A stretch of 64,000 nt of DNA from an uncultured Brevundimonas sp. (GTDB lineage Bacteria; Pseudomonadota; Alphaproteobacteria; Caulobacterales; Caulobacteraceae). Made by a program: the position numbers and the translations under genes. How positions within the stretch are numbered: the first letter of the stretch is position 1; each line of letters opens with the position of its first letter. Under the pieces are notes generated by a model. The model searched no databases and was not told the origin of the DNA. It was given only the letters and a program-made list of their open reading frames with translations. The DNA lies in contig NZ_CAMZFB010000012.1 of NCBI RefSeq assembly GCF_947305955.1, positions 1 through 64,000 of the forward strand. Reading direction: 5' to 3'. This document shows, one piece after another, positions 49,964 through 58,382 of the stretch.

Positions 49964-51165
49964 GCGGCTTCTCCGGTACTGTGTGCGGCCAAGAGGGCGG
50001 CCGTCTTCTGGAACAGGGCCATGGCCCGCTCGTCCTCGTCCAGCAGGGCCGATCCGCCCAGCGCGACAAGCCCGATCCGCAGCGGCTGGTCCGAGATCAG
50101 GATGGCGTGCGTCGAGTTGTGCCGCAGCAGCAGGTCACGCAGCTGTTCGCGGGCATCGGCCAGCGGATGCTCGGCCCACAGGCTGGACAGGTGGACCACA
50201 GGGCGGCCCTCGAACGCGGCGGGCAGCAGGGCGGGGTCGTAATCGGTCAGGTCGTTGCCTTGGGCGAGGATCAGCCCTTCCAGCGGAGCGACGCGGGACG
50301 CATCGGCGATAAAGGCACCCAGCGATGCGGTGTCGGCATTGGCCAGCGTATGGTCGAACAGGCGGCGCTGTTGGTCATTGCCGCCCGAGCGCAGGCGCAG
50401 CAGCACCGACAGAGCCAACAGGGCGGCTACCGTCACCGCCAGCACCGAGCCTGCCTCCAGCCAGCTTTGCGGGCGGTTGAGCAGCATCAGCGCCCCCGCC
50501 AGCAGGATGGCCGTCGCGAAGGTGAGTGACAGCTCCTTGATCGTGTCCAGCCACCCCTTGGGCGCATTGGCTCCGGCAGCGGCGGCATAGGCGAGGCCCA
50601 GCAGACCCAGTGCGGACAGGCCGACGGGCAGGCCGATACGGAAATCCGTCAGCGCCAACAGGCCCGTCGCCAGAAGGGCGCGGGCATAGGCGTTGAGGGT
50701 GGAGTTCTCCATCGGCGACAGGCTGTCACGGCGGCGGAATACGATCAGGCCCAAAACCAGCAGTAGGGCGCACGGCACATAGATCGCCAGATTGAAGGCC
50801 CGCTCAATGCCGCTTCCGGCCAGAAGGGCGGCGAGGATGCCAAGGATGGTGCCGCCGCCGATGACGATCTTCATCCACAGCGGTGAATGCCGCCGCAGCA
50901 GGATTTCCGCGAGGATCAGCGCCGCCGTCGGCAGGGCGCAGGCCAGCACCAGCGTCAGGGCCCCAAATGCCCCCACACCCGTGGCCATGCTGAGCGCGCG
51001 GCAGAGATAGAAAAGGCCCGACAGGCCGAACACGAGCAGCAGCACGTTCTGGACGGTCGAGCGGCGGCGACGTCGCCACAGGACGAGCGCCACCGCCAAT
51101 GCGCCGATCGCCCCGAACCCGTCCACGAGCATGCGCGTGGTTTCTGCCAGCGACAGATCGCTCAT
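49960..51165 (-). CDS. Multispanning membrane protein with GAF-like tail, third gene of cassette
   Basis: The ATG at 51165 overlaps the ThiF-type gene stop. The 401-residue protein has about eight to nine membrane helices in the first 275 residues, arranged like the 7TM sensor part of some histidine kinases. A soluble C-terminal domain of about 120 residues (VAPLEGLILAQGNDLTDYDPALL...GLVALGGSALLDEDERAM) looks GAF-like. There is no kinase, cyclase or receiver domain. It could be the sensor, exporter or membrane anchor of the cassette. Confidence 0.72.
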   Translation of the reverse strand: MSDLSLAETTRMLVDGFGAIGALAVALVLWRRRRRSTVQNVLLLVFGLSGLFYLCRALSMATGVGAFGALTLVLACALPTAALILAEILLRRHSPLWMKIVIGGGTILGILAALLAGSGIERAFNLAIYVPCALLLVLGLIVFRRRDSLSPMENSTLNAYARALLATGLLALTDFRIGLPVGLSALGLLGLAYAAAAGANAPKGWLDTIKELSLTFATAILLAGALMLLNRPQSWLEAGSVLAVTVAALLALSVLLRLRSGGNDQQRRLFDHTLANADTASLGAFIADASRVAPLEGLILAQGNDLTDYDPALLPAAFEGRPVVHLSSLWAEHPLADAREQLRDLLLRHNSTHAILISDQPLRIGLVALGGSALLDEDERAMALFQKTAALLAAHSTGEAA

Positions 51166-52034
51166 CCGGCCAGAAGCCTTTGCATGAAGCGACGCACGAT
51201 GACCGCCTTCAACGCGCCGATGGGGGCGGGCAGGGGGCGCTCGCATTTCGCGTCACGCGTGTTCATGAACCAGCCACGGCAGTCGGTCTTTGTCTTGCGC
51301 CCCATCAAAAGGGCCAGCGCTTCGCCCGCCATCAGGCATCCGGCGGTGGTGACCATGGGGGCGAAGCTCATGCGCTTGCGCTTTCCGGCGGCCATTTCGG
51401 CGGCGGCAGTCAGGTCCACATGGCTGTGGCTGGACGAATGGGTCATCACCCATTCCAGTTCCTTCATGAAACAGGCGGCGGCCTGTTCCTCGGTGATGGC
51501 CTTCCAGTCCGTGCCCTTGATCGGATAGCCGAGGCGTTCTTCGGGGCGGGGATCGGTGGGGCGCACCACAATGACAGAGGGCAGCGGCGAGGCATAGGCG
51601 TCGATCACCGTCGCGCCATGCTGCTTGGCCTTGCGGTACAGTTGGGCGGTGGCGGGAATGTCGTCACAGCCGTTGATGATGACGCTGTACTCCGCGCACA
51701 GCTCGTCCAGCTTTTCGGTCCATTCCGCCCCCAGAACCGTCAGCGCCAGATCGAGATTGATGCGCTTCAGACCCTCTGCCGTCACCTCGGCCTTGGGGCG
51801 ATCCACGGTGTCAGTGAACGCGAAGAGTTGGCGATTAAGGTTTGAAATTTCGAAACTATCGAGATCGGCGATGGCGATCTTGCCTACGCCCGCTCGCACC
51901 AGCATCTGGACCGCCGCGCCGCCCATGCCGCCCACGCCTGCGACAAAGACCGCGCCGTCTTTCAGGCACTGTTGCTCGGCCTCGGTAATGAAGCCGATGT
52001 TGCGGGTGGTCATCTCGGAATAGAAATCGGTCAT
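51162..52034 (-). CDS. ThiF/E1-like adenylyltransferase, second gene of cassette
   Basis: The ATG at 52034 overlaps the stop of the upstream gene (ATGA). The 290-residue protein has the E1-type Rossmann ATP site (VFVAGVGGMGGAAVQMLVRAGVGKIAIADLDSFEISNLNRQ, about 30-70, with the finger Arg in NLNRQ), the NGCDD aspartate segment and the FAPMVTTAGCLMAGEAL helix of the ThiF/MoeB/HesA family. The paired CXXC zinc motifs of MoeB are absent. E1-like proteins adenylate the C-terminus of a small protein or amino acid. No ubiquitin-like partner is visible next to it, so the target is probably a small molecule or encoded elsewhere. Confidence 0.88.
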   Translation of the reverse strand: MTDFYSEMTTRNIGFITEAEQQCLKDGAVFVAGVGGMGGAAVQMLVRAGVGKIAIADLDSFEISNLNRQLFAFTDTVDRPKAEVTAEGLKRINLDLALTVLGAEWTEKLDELCAEYSVIINGCDDIPATAQLYRKAKQHGATVIDAYASPLPSVIVVRPTDPRPEERLGYPIKGTDWKAITEEQAAACFMKELEWVMTHSSSHSHVDLTAAAEMAAGKRKRMSFAPMVTTAGCLMAGEALALLMGRKTKTDCRGWFMNTRDAKCERPLPAPIGALKAVIVRRFMQRLLAG

Positions 52035-52963
52035 TTGCTCATCTTTGCGGGGCGCAGCACGCCCCATGCGCGGTCAGGCGACAGCCAGTGGATCAGGGGC
52101 AGGACCGCCATGCGCGCCCCCATCAAAAGGACGAGGCCCGTCAGCCCCATGGCGGTGGTCGGTGGGGCGACCTTTCGCAGGTATTGGCCGGCTGCCGCCA
52201 TGTCGATGCGACCGATCTGGATCAGGTCGTCGCCTCGGTCATAGTCCAGCTGTTGCTGGCAAAAATCGTTGTATTTCTGTTTTCTATGCGGCGTTGCTTG
52301 TTCGAAGGTTTTCTTCAGGGCGTCGCTGCCGCCGGTATAGGCATTGGTGATGACGAAGCGCGCCTCGTCGAAACCGGCTTCTTCGCCGACGCCAAAGGCC
52401 GCGCGGTGGCGAGCCATGATCTGGCGGCCCAGTGACAGGTGGTCGAAGCTGCGGCGCGCATCGGGACGGGGCGAGGGAAAAACGTCGGAAAACGTCTCCG
52501 CCACCATGCCTGCGACGGCCGGTACCTGTGTGACGTTGGAAATCCACATCGGGCGACCCTGACCCGTCAGGAACATCAGCACGCAGGTTAGGCCATAGAG
52601 GGTGGCCGACAGGCCGCGCCCGCGTGCCGTCGGGTCCACCATGACAAGGCCAAGGTGCATCACCTGCGTCGGTCGGTCTGCCAGTTCCACATCCAGAAGC
52701 GACAGCACATTGAACGCCACCGGACGGCGCGGACCTTTAGAATTTTCAGACTGATAGACGACAGTGATGACGCAGTTGTTCAACCGCTCTGCATCGCCAC
52801 CCAGCACGCCGTATTCCAGATCCTCGCCCTTCAGGGTCAGGCTGGCGATGGAGCGCATGTCGTTGACCAAGGCGCGCGTCTGATCCACCGATAGGGTCAG
52901 GCCGGGGCGCTCGACGATGCGCGTCCACATATTGCGACCGGATCGCCATGTCAGATTGATCAT
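52031..52963 (-). CDS. GNAT-fold acyltransferase-like protein, first gene of cassette
   Basis: I chose ATG 52963, with GGGGGAG 12 bases upstream; a TTG at 52987 is the alternative. The 310-residue protein contains a GNAT core: LGLVMVDPTARGRGLSATLYGLTCVLMFL (about 105-133), with the acetyl-CoA loop RGRGLS, flanked by a beta-rich N-terminal part and a helical C-terminal part that includes one hydrophobic segment (about 277-297). It is the first gene of a five-gene unit in which each start overlaps the previous stop. Family-level function is unknown. Confidence 0.75.
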   Translation of the reverse strand: MINLTWRSGRNMWTRIVERPGLTLSVDQTRALVNDMRSIASLTLKGEDLEYGVLGGDAERLNNCVITVVYQSENSKGPRRPVAFNVLSLLDVELADRPTQVMHLGLVMVDPTARGRGLSATLYGLTCVLMFLTGQGRPMWISNVTQVPAVAGMVAETFSDVFPSPRPDARRSFDHLSLGRQIMARHRAAFGVGEEAGFDEARFVITNAYTGGSDALKKTFEQATPHRKQKYNDFCQQQLDYDRGDDLIQIGRIDMAAAGQYLRKVAPPTTAMGLTGLVLLMGARMAVLPLIHWLSPDRAWGVLRPAKMSK

Positions 52964-53049
52964 CGGGTCCGGCGACTCCCCCGCCAAAAACTACACCCAA
53001 GGGTGCCCACCGAGGGAGGGGGAGGTCAAGCGGTGGATATATCCGGGTA

Positions 53050-53361: not shown

Positions 53362-53447
53362 GGCTGTTCTCCTCTGGGGAGAAAGTGACCGAAGGACAAA
53401 GCCTGTTCCGTGCGTCGCATAGGAGACACAGGCGGGCGGAAGACAAA

Positions 53448-53479
53448 GGGCGCAACCCTTTCGGATCGCGCCCCAAGGT
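53448..53479 (-). terminator. Possible terminator after the ClpP-like autotransporter
   Basis: On the minus strand GGGCGC and GCGCCC (6 bp, 53473-53468 and 53453-53448) are followed by TTTGTCTT. The short stem and long loop make it a moderate candidate. Confidence 0.5.
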
Positions 53480-53496
53480 TGGAAGTCAGTCGCTGA

Positions 53497-56400
53497 TTAA
53501 AAGCGGTACTGGATGGCCGCTTGCAGGCCGTGGGCGGTTTCGCCGCCGATGGCTTGGCCCTGATACTCAACCGAGATGTTCACATTCTCCGAACGGGTCG
53601 AGCTGCGCAGGCCGATGTTCCAGTCCACCGCGTCACGCCCCAGTTGGCGTGATGCCGCGTCGAACGCCAGTTCCGGTGCCAGTGCAAAGTGGTTGACCGA
53701 GATCGCATCGCGATCCTGCAACTCGCGCTGCCAGACGACGCGGGCATAGGGGGTGACGCGCCAGTCGTCCTTGATGACTTCCTTCTGGAATTGCAGGCCG
53801 ATACCGGCACGCAGGCTCTCAACGTCCTTCAGATCGCCTTCAAGGGCCGTTGGGTTGTTGCCCTGATCCTTAAAGGTCGTGCCGGACATGTTCACATAGT
53901 CCACCACGGGGGCGAGCAGGGTCACGCTGGCGTTGTCCTTGGACCCCAGCTGGAAGCCATGCTCGAAGCGGGCGAAGAAGGCGTTGCTGTCGTATTCAGA
54001 GCGGGTGCTGCCATCCAGGCCGTCGATACCGCTGATGACGCGGCGGGTATCGCTTTCCAGATTGGTATAGCCGATCTGGCCCGACACATATCCGCGACGG
54101 TAGTTGGCATCGCCGTACACCGCGACCGACAGGGCATCGATCTCGCCATTGAAGTTGTTGTTGGGGCGAGTGTTGGCGTTCAGCGTGCCATAGCCAAAGG
54201 CGGCACCCAGGCGGAATCGGTCCGACAGTTCGCGGTGGGCACCCATCAGAACGCCATAGCCGTTGTATTCGACCTTGCCGATGTCCTCATAGGCCTTGAT
54301 GGCCCCGCTGCGGCCAAAGCCGCTGGCCCAGAAGGTGGTGGGGCGCGACAGGTCGTAAGGGCTGCGTACAGTGGGGGCGGGCGCTGCGACAACCATGGAG
54401 CCATTGTCGCCGCCGCCAATGCCGATGCGGCCTTCCTGATACATCAGGTCGGTCGTGGCAGAGGCCATCGGCGTGCCCACGCTCATGGAGCGGGCGACCG
54501 GATTGCGGGTCGCGGTGTGCAGAGCTTCGGAGAAGTTGTCGATGAAGCTGCGTCCGGCTAGCCGCAGGGTCGAATGTCCGTCACCGCGCAGGGCACCGGA
54601 TTGGCGGCGGGCGATATCGCGATCGGCAAACTGCAGATAACCTAGCAGCGGGGCCAGCGTCGTGTTCGGATCGTGCGAGGCATCGCGCAGCGCAATGCCC
54701 AGACCGTCACCGGAGCGGGAGTTGCCGAACAGGGCCACATCCTCGAACGCCGGATTAGCTTCCAGTGAAATGCCGTCACCCGATTGCAGGATGTTGAAGG
54801 TCAGCAGCGAGTTATTGCGCGCGTGGAAGACCGCGCCGTCCTTGGTCAGGTCCACCTCATAACCATCGTCGCCGATGCGCTTGGCGGTCAGGAACTTGCC
54901 CTGAACGAACGGAATGTCCGGAGCCTCCATTTCAAGGTCTTCGTCGGCAAAGCCGCAATAGACACCGTTATAGCCGCGATAGCCTTGAGGGGAATCGGTG
55001 CACGGCTCGACAGGGAGTTGCAGCGGGCTGCTGTCCACGATGCCGCTCACCAGCGGGATGATGTGGCCGCTGGCGTAATATCCCTGCTGGATATCCAGCG
55101 CGAGCGCCGCCTTCTCCCCGATCGCCAGTTGGGCCTTGTTGTGGTTCGAATAGATGTTGAAGTCGCCGTAGAAGGCGTCTTCTTCGATCAGGAAGTAGCG
55201 CGCCTGTTCCAGCGTCAGCGGGGATTGGGTGGTCTGGTTCGAGACGCTGAAGGCGAGGGTACCGCCATCCAGCACGTTGAGAATACGGCCCTGACCGATC
55301 CGCATCTTCTCGGTGCGGAGATTCTCCGAAAAGCCGAACGGGGCGATGGGCGCGAAATCATAGGGTCGCATGACCAACCCGTCCGCGATCAAGGTGCCGC
55401 CGTCGCGGATCACCATGGTGGCACCAAGGGTCCCGTTGCCGGCCAGAACGCCGCCATTGAACACCTCGGTCAGGGTATTCAGCTCGCCGCCGTTCATGCG
55501 GATCATGCCGCCGTTATAGGCAAAGATCGCTTCGGCCAGTTCGACGCGCGAATTGGACAACATCTCCAGCTCGCCGCCGTCCACCATCACCAGTTCGGCG
55601 GCTGCGGCGGTATCCAAGGACCATTTTCCGCCCGGTAGAACCGTCACGGAGCTGTATTTGTCGGTAAAGTCGAACTCCGGGAAGTCGACGTGGAACTGGG
55701 CCAAGCCTTCCAGATTCGACGAATAACGGACGCCCTTGTCCCAGTTGGTTTCGATATTGCCCGAGACATTGTTGGTCACGAACAGCCGGTCGTTGACGGT
55801 CACATATTCGCCCGAGGTGGCGATGGTGTCCGAGGTCATTGTGACGTCGGGATAGGCAGTACAGTTACCGTCCTCGCCTAGATTGGCGGTCGGGCAGAAA
55901 CGGGTCGCGATATCGGTCTTGTTGGGATCGAAATAGCGCAGGAAACCTGACTGCTGGGTCAGTTCATAGTGCGCCTGAATGATCCGGTCGCCCGCGATGG
56001 CAAAGCCTTCATCGCCCAGCATTTCGCGGTAGTAGTCGATGTAGATCTCTTGCTGGGGGTAGGGCAGGGGCTGGCCGCCGGATGCGGCGCCGTGGATGCC
56101 CAGTTCTGTCCCTTTCCACAGGCTGTAGGCCGGAATGTTGTAGTCCGTATAGTAGCGGTTCACCCCGCCGACAAAGGCATCGGCACAGGCCGAAAAACAG
56201 CCGCCGTCCAGCACGGTATCCAGGCCATAGGCGCGGATGACCGTGCCCATGCCGACACCGCCCGAAGCTGCGCCACCCGGAGAGTTTCGGAACACCACCG
56301 TATTGATCGTTACGCCTTGTTCCTCGGCGCTCGAGAGAATGCCGAGCAGCTCATAGGGGTCATCCCGCGAGACGCCGCCGGTATAGTAGAGCGTGTTGCC

Positions 56401-56541
56401 ATTGATATGCCATTGGCCGGCCATGGCTTCGCTGGTGAAGCAGGCGAGAGCGCCGATAGAGGCCGTCGTCGCGAGTGCCAGCTTTCTCAAGCTGCCGTTA
56501 CTGCTGCGTTTGTGTTGAATAATCTTTGAAGATGGAAACAT
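53497..56541 (-). CDS. Autotransporter with ClpP/COG3904-like protease domain
   Basis: The 1014-residue protein has an extended signal peptide (about 1-41, ending SEAMAG). Residues 43-210 look like the ClpP-type COG3904 periplasmic proteases: NSPGG (86-90), candidate nucleophile S117 in GGCFSACADAFVGGVNRYY and candidate base H150 in LGIHGA. Residues 220-640 form a repetitive beta-helix passenger with autotransporter-associated repeats (GGELEMLSNSRVELAEA, NGGMIRMNGGELNTLTEV). The last 270 residues are a barrel ending in Phe (AIQYRF). I know type Va autotransporters with subtilisin- or chymotrypsin-like proteases, but not with a ClpP-like one. It would act at the cell surface or be released. 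Confidence 0.85.
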   Translation of the reverse strand: MFPSSKIIQHKRSSNGSLRKLALATTASIGALACFTSEAMAGQWHINGNTLYYTGGVSRDDPYELLGILSSAEEQGVTINTVVFRNSPGGAASGGVGMGTVIRAYGLDTVLDGGCFSACADAFVGGVNRYYTDYNIPAYSLWKGTELGIHGAASGGQPLPYPQQEIYIDYYREMLGDEGFAIAGDRIIQAHYELTQQSGFLRYFDPNKTDIATRFCPTANLGEDGNCTAYPDVTMTSDTIATSGEYVTVNDRLFVTNNVSGNIETNWDKGVRYSSNLEGLAQFHVDFPEFDFTDKYSSVTVLPGGKWSLDTAAAAELVMVDGGELEMLSNSRVELAEAIFAYNGGMIRMNGGELNTLTEVFNGGVLAGNGTLGATMVIRDGGTLIADGLVMRPYDFAPIAPFGFSENLRTEKMRIGQGRILNVLDGGTLAFSVSNQTTQSPLTLEQARYFLIEEDAFYGDFNIYSNHNKAQLAIGEKAALALDIQQGYYASGHIIPLVSGIVDSSPLQLPVEPCTDSPQGYRGYNGVYCGFADEDLEMEAPDIPFVQGKFLTAKRIGDDGYEVDLTKDGAVFHARNNSLLTFNILQSGDGISLEANPAFEDVALFGNSRSGDGLGIALRDASHDPNTTLAPLLGYLQFADRDIARRQSGALRGDGHSTLRLAGRSFIDNFSEALHTATRNPVARSMSVGTPMASATTDLMYQEGRIGIGGGDNGSMVVAAPAPTVRSPYDLSRPTTFWASGFGRSGAIKAYEDIGKVEYNGYGVLMGAHRELSDRFRLGAAFGYGTLNANTRPNNNFNGEIDALSVAVYGDANYRRGYVSGQIGYTNLESDTRRVISGIDGLDGSTRSEYDSNAFFARFEHGFQLGSKDNASVTLLAPVVDYVNMSGTTFKDQGNNPTALEGDLKDVESLRAGIGLQFQKEVIKDDWRVTPYARVVWQRELQDRDAISVNHFALAPELAFDAASRQLGRDAVDWNIGLRSSTRSENVNISVEYQGQAIGGETAHGLQAAIQYRF

Positions 56542-56849
56542 GCGTTCAATACCGTCACTCGTTACCGATGAACAACGATTGTAACAATGTTATTCATGTA
56601 CAAGCTGAGCGGTTTTTCAATTTAGTAAATTCATCTGGATAGCATCATTATTGTGATCAATTAGCCGCATTTTTGTAAGCGTGGCCGAATGTATTCAGGA
56701 CAAAATGAATATAACTTCGGTATTATTGCACCTTGCGTTCAGTATTATTATGAAAGCTAATGTCTTCTGCGGTGTGAGGTTGCGGACACAAAAAGAGCCG
56801 CAACGCCTGTAGGACGTGCGGCTCTTCTGATGTTTGGATGCCGTTCCCG
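56542..56849. other. Gene-free stretch before the ClpP-like autotransporter
   Basis: This 308-base AT-rich interval lies between the autotransporter start and the hutH stop. The left half must hold the autotransporter promoter, possibly with TTGAAA at 56615-56620 on the minus strand, but I see no clear -10. The right half holds the hutH terminator. No open frame in it looks like a protein. Confidence 0.6.
56794..56825 (-). terminator. Intrinsic terminator after hutH
   Basis: On the minus strand AGAGCCGCA pairs with TGCGGCTCT and is followed by TTTTTG. It ends the hutUH transcript. Confidence 0.88.
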
Positions 56850-58382
56850 TCAGGCTGACGGCAGCAGCTCGCCCGCGAATGGACGGTAGCGGCCTTCGCG
56901 CACGCCCTTGGTGGCGCGGGCGATATCGGGGGCGAAATAGTGGTCGCTGGTGTAGGGGGCAGCCGCCTCGCGAACGATGGCATAGGCCTGTTCCAGTTCG
57001 GGTGAACTGGTCAGCGGGCGGTGGAAGTCGATGCCCTGGGCCGCGGCCAACAGTTCGATGCCGACGACATTGGCGGTGTTCTCGGCCATATCCAGCAGGC
57101 GGCGTGCGCCGTGGGTGGCCATTGAGACATGGTCTTCCTGATTGGCGCTGGTCGGCACGGTGTCGATCACGCACGGATGGGCCATCATGCGGTTTTCCGC
57201 GACCAATGCCGCCGCCGTGACCTGTGCGATCATAAAGCCCGAGTTCAGGCCGCTTTCCTTGACGAGGAAGGCAGGCAGTTCGCTCATCTTCGGATCGACG
57301 AGGATGGATGTGCGGCGCTCGCTGATATTGCCGATCTCGCACAGAACCATCGCGATCTGGTCGGCGGCATAGGCGACTGGCTCGGCGTGGAAGTTGCCGC
57401 CGGAGATCACGTCGCCGTCCTCGATGAACACCAAGGGGTTGTCGGTGACGGCATTGGCCTCGCGCTCCAGCATGGCGGCGGCGTTGCGCAGGACATCCAG
57501 CGTCGCGCCCATGACCTGAGGCTGGCAGCGCAGGGAATAGGGGTCCTGCACCTTGGAACAGTCGTGGCGGTGGCTTTCGCGGATGGCGCTGCCCGACAGG
57601 ATTTCGCGTAGGCGTTTTGCCACGTCGATCTGGCCCGGCTGACCGCGTAAGGCATGGATGCGGTGGTCGAACGGCGCGTCGGAGCCTTTCAGTGCATCGA
57701 CCGACAGTCCGCCCGCAGCGATGGTGGCGGCGAACACATCCTCGGTCGCGAACAGTCCGGCCAGAGCCAGAGCGGTCGAACATTGGGTGCCGTTCAGCAG
57801 GGCCAAGCCTTCCTTGGGGCCAAGCACGATCGGCTCAAGTCCGGCTTTCGACAGGGCGGTGACGGCATCCATCACCTGACCCTGATAGCGGGCCTCACCC
57901 ACGCCGATCAGGACGCTGGACATGTGCGCCAACGGAGCCAGATCACCCGAGGCACCGACCGAGCCCTTGGACGGGATCAGCGGCAGTACGCCTGAGTTGA
58001 CCATGCCGATCAAGGTTTCCAGCGTGCGGCGGCGGACGCCCGATGCGCCCTTGGACAGGCTGGCGATCTTCAGCACCATCAACAGACGGGTGATGTCTTC
58101 GCTCAGCGGCTCGCCCACGCCGCAGGCATGGCTGAGGACGAGGTTCTTTTGCAGGGTTTCTAGGTCGTCCGCAGCGATGGAGGTGTTGGCCAGAAGGCCG
58201 AACCCCGTATTGATGCCATAGACCGTGCGCCCTTCCTTCAGGATGGCCTCGACCGTCGCGGCACCTTTCTCGACATTGCCCCATGCGGCATCCGTCAGGG
58301 ACACGCGGACCGGCCCGTTCATCGCGGCGCGCAGTTGCGACAGGGTGAGGGGCGCGGCCCCGATTTCGATTGCGGTGGTCAT
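56850..58382 (-). CDS. hutH: Histidine ammonia-lyase
   Basis: The 510-residue enzyme carries the MIO-forming A144-S145-G146 in [14 protein letters not shown], with YGINTGFG and the later QEDHVSM motif of the ammonia-lyase family. It converts L-histidine to urocanate and ammonia, the first step of histidine degradation. It lies four bases downstream of hutU and is transcribed with it. The length is normal for HutH. Confidence 0.97.

Follow-up and report, generated by a model that had tools for sequence, protein, structure and literature searches.

We examined a gene for an autotransporter-type protein in a 64,000-nucleotide stretch of DNA from an uncultured Brevundimonas sp. (contig NZ_CAMZFB010000012.1, positions 1 to 64,000; hereafter the window). 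The gene lies at 53497..56541, exactly where the original prediction had placed it, and on the minus strand, which that prediction did not give: the plus-strand translation of 53497-56541 contains eight stops, whereas the minus strand is an open frame of 1014 amino acids. The database copy of the window protein (P0001) has 997 amino acids, which leaves the start codon uncertain. Residues 1-41 (56419..56541, minus strand, as are all features of this protein) form a putative Sec signal peptide, with a cleavage site at A-M-A41/G42 that was read by eye alone and shares the uncertainty of the start codon. At the other end, residues 735-1014 (53500..54339) form the translocator beta-barrel, with F as the final residue. 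The C-terminal autotransporter barrel proposed earlier is borne out by a match of residues 737-994 to PF03797 (E 1.3e-40, 140.2 bits versus a curated Pfam cut-off of 26). A beta-helix-like stem is predicted for residues 298-600 (54742..55650), and the full-length model has a helix at residues 654-678 (54508..54582) that precedes the barrel and is a pore-helix candidate. The linker at residues 681-730 (54352..54501) is modelled with low confidence (predicted local distance difference test score below 50), and its mean identity among relatives, 0.26, is as low as that of the signal region. By its barrel and predicted beta-helix stem, the protein is an autotransporter, probably of the classical (type Va) kind.

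The N-terminal passenger domain, residues 43-216 (55894..56415), was delimited by conservation, profile searches and predicted fold. Its motifs are numbered as the original prediction had them. N86-S-P-G-G90 (56272..56286) aligns with the NSPGG of ClpP and is likely the oxyanion side of the active site. In C115-F-S117-A-C119 (56185..56199), a Cys pair evident in the sequence and in alignments flanks S117 (56191..56193), the candidate nucleophile, and L-G-I-H150 ends in the candidate base (56092..56094). The cysteines outside the signal region fall into three close pairs, 115/119, 216/227 and 514/529, and the same pairs occur in 13 other aligned members of the family, with extra C-terminal cysteines in P0004 and P0010. 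A disulphide between C115 and C119 may be supposed. For 216/227, 60 aligned rows have both residues in 51 cases, neither in seven and only one in two, a pattern of co-occurrence as expected of a disulphide.

Conservation sets this domain apart from most of the protein. The family set comprises the window protein and 13 proteins found using its first 460 residues (14 full-length members). N86, P88, G89, G90, C115, S117, C119, R129 and H150 are invariant in 14/14, so the motifs are more than chance. Pairwise identity, averaged over 78 pairs from 13 sequences (P0010, which has a broken end, was excluded), stands at 0.59 in residues 43-216, compared with 0.36 in the stem and 0.44 in the barrel; the stretch 578-660, preceding the barrel, is alone in equalling the passenger domain, at 0.60. 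In a wider alignment of 130 mostly stand-alone rows (the window protein and P0018-P0146), C115, S117, C119, R129 and H150 are present in every row, and Ser and His are likewise invariant in a 60-row alignment (A5) that spans 22-75% identity to the query. The set of C, S, C and H is complete in 142 of the 144 distinct proteins among P0001-P0146 that match the A4 profile, the two exceptions being fragments, and in 56 of 61 distinct locus frames (L001-L100) that match it. Among the five exceptional frames, L080 is a fragment that lacks this region, the matches of L016 and L019 stop before the His, and L098 reflects an alignment slip and reads G-I-H. The fifth, the stand-alone relative L078, lacks both Cys at the C115/C119 positions and keeps Ser and His.

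Direct searches of Pfam, NCBIfam and PDB sequences (phmmer) with the whole protein returned only barrel families or nothing. At E-values up to 1, the Pfam matches were to barrel families, with no S6 or S8 match in the passenger, and an NCBIfam match to EprS spans residues 733-1014, in the barrel, at 52.5 bits versus a cut-off of 1700. The full-length model, built from 14 rows, had too little confidence near the N-terminus (block means of 30-86 over residues 41-190, and below 50 in the H150 loop), and barrels took up the results of its fold search, so a separate domain model was made from 60 rows. Structure prediction and fold comparison, proposed as a check alongside the original prediction, gave a ClpP fold by prediction, with ClpP and 1510-N peptidases making up most of the best matches listed. 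In Foldseek, 47 of the 50 listed rows were such peptidases and the other three were the crotonase entry 3gkb; in a VIA search, all 50 listed rows were peptidases.

Profile comparisons point the same way. Against PDB sequences, a profile of 11 domain pieces gave five matches at E up to 5, four of them ClpP (best E 0.0096), and the 60-row profile gave 34 matches at E up to 1, every one of them to ClpP (best E 0.019); these E-values are individually weak, and their weight lies in all or most of the matches being of one kind. We obtained a ClpP row from 28 of 30 loci. Against these 28 sequences, a profile of stand-alone relatives reached a probability of 94, with Ser on the catalytic Ser and His on the catalytic His. 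The 60-row domain profile reached a probability of 81 and a score of 40.6, compared with a maximum of 19.4 among 60 column shuffles and 13.4 for the reversed profile. In this comparison, S117 falls on the catalytic Ser of ClpP at the default threshold, and H150 on the catalytic His only at a lowered one.

Since the predicted ClpP fold comes with the Ser and His of ClpP, the protein is likely to act at the cell surface as a Ser-His hydrolase, and most probably as a protease or peptidase, a reading that we favor with some reserve. The earlier interpretation of the passenger as a ClpP/COG3904-like protease thus gains support from the predicted fold, the profile relation and the Ser/His register. 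Several points weigh on the other side. TM-scores to the 50 listed rows are moderate, at 0.39-0.51 by query length. The 11 autotransporter pieces compared directly with ClpP reached a probability of only 17, and the Pfam ClpP model, PF00574, matches neither the window protein nor any of the pieces, which hit only five unrelated Pfam families (best E 0.025). PF00574 does give sub-threshold matches in two of five stand-alone relatives, the best at 16.2 bits versus a cut-off of 20.2. The invariance of Ser, His and Cys is partly a matter of ascertainment, relatives having been gathered by similarity. Beyond H150, no column of the 60-row alignment is acidic in as many as 90% of its rows. Finally, known ClpP is a 14-mer that works with an unfoldase, and an exported, tethered domain would have neither.

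The wider family conserves no acidic third residue, so our preferred reading is a Ser-His dyad, the alternative being a triad whose third member depends on the lineage. All 14 full-length autotransporters have D205, but in the 130 mostly stand-alone rows, this position holds H in 81, D in 21 and N in seven. A Ser-Lys (SppA-type) center was set aside, as the His is invariant and aligned with the ClpP His; this judgment goes by the His column.

The protein might work as follows. The Sec signal would be removed near A41, after which the barrel would insert and the passenger be threaded outward, as in other members of the autotransporter family. The beta-helix stem would then fold and hold the ClpP-like domain at its outer tip. 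There, S117, activated by H150, might attack a peptide bond, the oxyanion hole being formed by the G89-G90 loop together with the peptide NH that follows S117. An exported passenger would presumably act without ATP and without an AAA+ unfoldase. As no ATP-driven unfoldase would be available outside the cell, the likely substrates are surface or environmental proteins, in segments that are exposed or unfolded.

A Ser-His pair in a crotonase-type fold is compatible with protease and non-protease hydrolase alike, and the domain might instead be another serine hydrolase, such as an esterase, thioesterase or deacylase with lipid or polysaccharide substituents as its targets. The three Foldseek rows for 3gkb would fit this, as would the standing of GDSL esterases as an established group of autotransporter enzymes in a review (PMC9289746). 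However, the remaining 47 Foldseek rows and all the listed VIA rows are peptidases, and both NSPGG and the Ser align with their ClpP counterparts, so we regard this alternative as rather unlikely. The lack of a conserved acidic third residue would also suit a catalytically dead ClpP-fold scaffold serving in binding, as an adhesin or receptor, in which Ser and His are structural; yet both residues are invariant in the 60-row and 130-row alignments and are present even in L078, which lacks the Cys pair, and this makes such a scaffold quite improbable. A redox or metal site formed by C115 and C119 with H150, in place of a Ser-His center, might be read from the presence of both Cys in 130/130 rows, each two residues from S117, but it is very improbable given that L078 retains Ser and His without either Cys, that the mature cysteines lie in three close pairs fitting the small disulphide loops that can in principle pass an autotransporter pore, and that the ClpP alignment explains the Ser and His.

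With ClpP (MEROPS S14, PF00574), the window protein shares the predicted fold, NSPGG and the Ser and His register, whereas the ClpP rows listed read A-A-S-M-G in place of C-x-S-x-C and have the His 25 residues after the Ser rather than 33. It also differs from ClpP in being, as we infer, exported and tethered, and in having no conserved Asp identified. Despite the likeness in predicted fold and Ser-His pair, it is not filed under S14 because it does not reach the PF00574 cut-off. The stomatin-specific membrane protease 1510-N matches the passenger domain in Foldseek at E 1.2e-5; 1510-N has a Ser-Lys dyad, and in the window domain the base position is a His. Subtilisin-like (S8) and chymotrypsin-like (S6, SPATE) autotransporters have the same "Type 2" layout of N-terminal catalytic domain, beta-helix stem and barrel, as described in the review (PMC9289746), and a fold search with the full-length model matches the stem to Ssp. 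Their catalytic folds differ from that of the window passenger, which has no S6 or S8 Pfam match. The passenger fold also differs from that of the GDSL esterase autotransporters EstA and EstP, and the window protein has a beta-helix stem.

The same review, from 2022, arranges characterised autotransporter enzymes in chymotrypsin-like, subtilisin-like and GDSL-esterase groups (PMC9289746), and a 2008 survey reports extra domains in only three of 121 ClpP homologues, all archaeal (PMC2605481). In the open-licence literature, searches for a ClpP-like autotransporter gave nothing, and none of the papers listed by broader searches describes such a protein in its title or abstract opening. The window protein is likely an undescribed kind of serine enzyme on the cell surface, and probably a protease. 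If so, the type V pathway would gain a further enzyme fold in the form of a ClpP-fold passenger, and the ClpP fold would be working outside the cell without an unfoldase.

A profile search for further relatives brought up 12 proteins, some of them fragments and others short proteins that carry the same motif. With a wider profile, 790 of 7998 scored candidates matched at E up to 1e-3, and 120 of these matches were listed. Stand-alone ClpP-like proteins (for example, the open reading frame at 3048-3764 of L006 and many of P0018-P0146) have the same C-x-S-x-C...H set and S-x-G-G loop; unlike the window protein, those listed are about 210-350 amino acids long and have no barrel. Such secreted-looking relatives are presumably the group that goes by the name COG3904. 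As a single pair, the autotransporter domain (A2) and the stand-alone profile (A3) match with a probability of 99.6 and E 1.3e-23. A tree of 48 chosen rows drew on 22 fused domains (17 with a match to the barrel and five judged by frame length), 13 L006-like stand-alone rows and 13 other stand-alone rows. The fused rows form one side of a branch with support 89/78, not starred, adjoining the L006-like rows, a placement that is tentative because long branches meet there. A single fusion event is, tentatively, the simplest reading. For the little-studied COG3904-type family, a surface copy that could be assayed on whole cells would offer a first handle.

We found one copy of the gene in its own genome and no second copy. 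Sources named among the 14 members include Brevundimonas, Luteimonas, Stenotrophomonas and Pseudomonas, and named loci add Dyella. The nearest relative, P0002, is 66% identical and labelled unclassified Brevundimonas; P0004, 50% identical and labelled Stenotrophomonas maltophilia, represents a cluster of 425 sequences. Matches at E up to 0.01 occur in 13 of 150 genomes, the source genome included; it alone covers the whole model, and the other 12 matches cover 44-89 positions. In the family around S. maltophilia PC315, 27 of 395 genomes match at 1e-5: by our reading of the matches, 17 have at least one frame of at least 970 amino acids matching at least 170 model positions, one has a 525-amino-acid frame and nine have short matches only. 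These counts are lower bounds, at most eight candidates having been scored per genome, and they go by frame length and extent of match rather than by a barrel in every frame. In a draw across the phylum, 19 of 398 matched at 1e-8, the source genome included, among them one further distant 1060-amino-acid frame (L082). The ClpP-fold autotransporter may be common in S. maltophilia, an organism of medical interest, given the size of the P0004 cluster. Whether these proteins form a new autotransporter enzyme class, a Ser-His protease of ClpP fold that arose by one recruitment from secreted COG3904-type proteins, tethered outside the cell without ATP or unfoldase, and common but unrecognised in Stenotrophomonas, seems to us evenly balanced.

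A diverged second subtype (TSNGG, C-V-S-S-C, E-I-H) also has PF03797 (L004, E 3.4e-37), and its domain starts 4.4 kb from a first-type domain in the same genome. The two diverged autotransporters with ClpP-like passengers thus stand close together in S. maltophilia IAM 12423 (L004, 5555-8530 and 9728 onward); the second lacks the C216/C227 pair and keeps Ser and His. In another genome (G458), the first-type gene is broken, and about 38 kb separate its two parts (L057 and L080), which share contig and strand.

Upstream, hutU (identified by eye) and hutH (PF00221) share the strand of the window gene. Comparisons of hutH loci within the genus place the gene at a variable spot. The nearest genus member, whose HutH is 95% identical, aligns on the hut side and over part of the stretch with the small downstream gene, with unrelated sequence in the middle; the next aligns on the hut side alone across the 9.7 kb compared. 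The autotransporter was not found within flanks of about 1.5 kb at 19 other hutH loci of the genus. Transfer, in either direction, between the lineage of the window gene and a Stenotrophomonas-type lineage is likely. The variable spot itself spans 53435-56852, where the close genus member has other genes, by eye transglutaminase-like, circularly-permuted-ATP-grasp-like and LysR-like. G+C content is 0.555-0.564 at 56000-57499 (the 5' end of the gene and the end of hutH), compared with 0.597-0.668 in neighboring windows between 55000 and 59500. Eleven plasmid records match the protein, and the eight matches listed cover only residues 720-1014, at the barrel end. Among viral contigs, 44 stretches matched a pattern and none of the 44 encodes a relative. 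Promoter and terminator patterns were no commoner than in shuffled sequence.

Elsewhere in the window, the region 51162-52987 on the minus strand holds two overlapping genes. One encodes a ThiF/E1-like adenylyltransferase (PF00899, E 8.5e-37) that scores below every listed NCBIfam cut-off. This gene overlaps the end of a 318-amino-acid open reading frame without a Pfam or NCBIfam match, which by eye has the look of an arginine-succinyltransferase-type acyltransferase; the two may be an uncharacterised pair.
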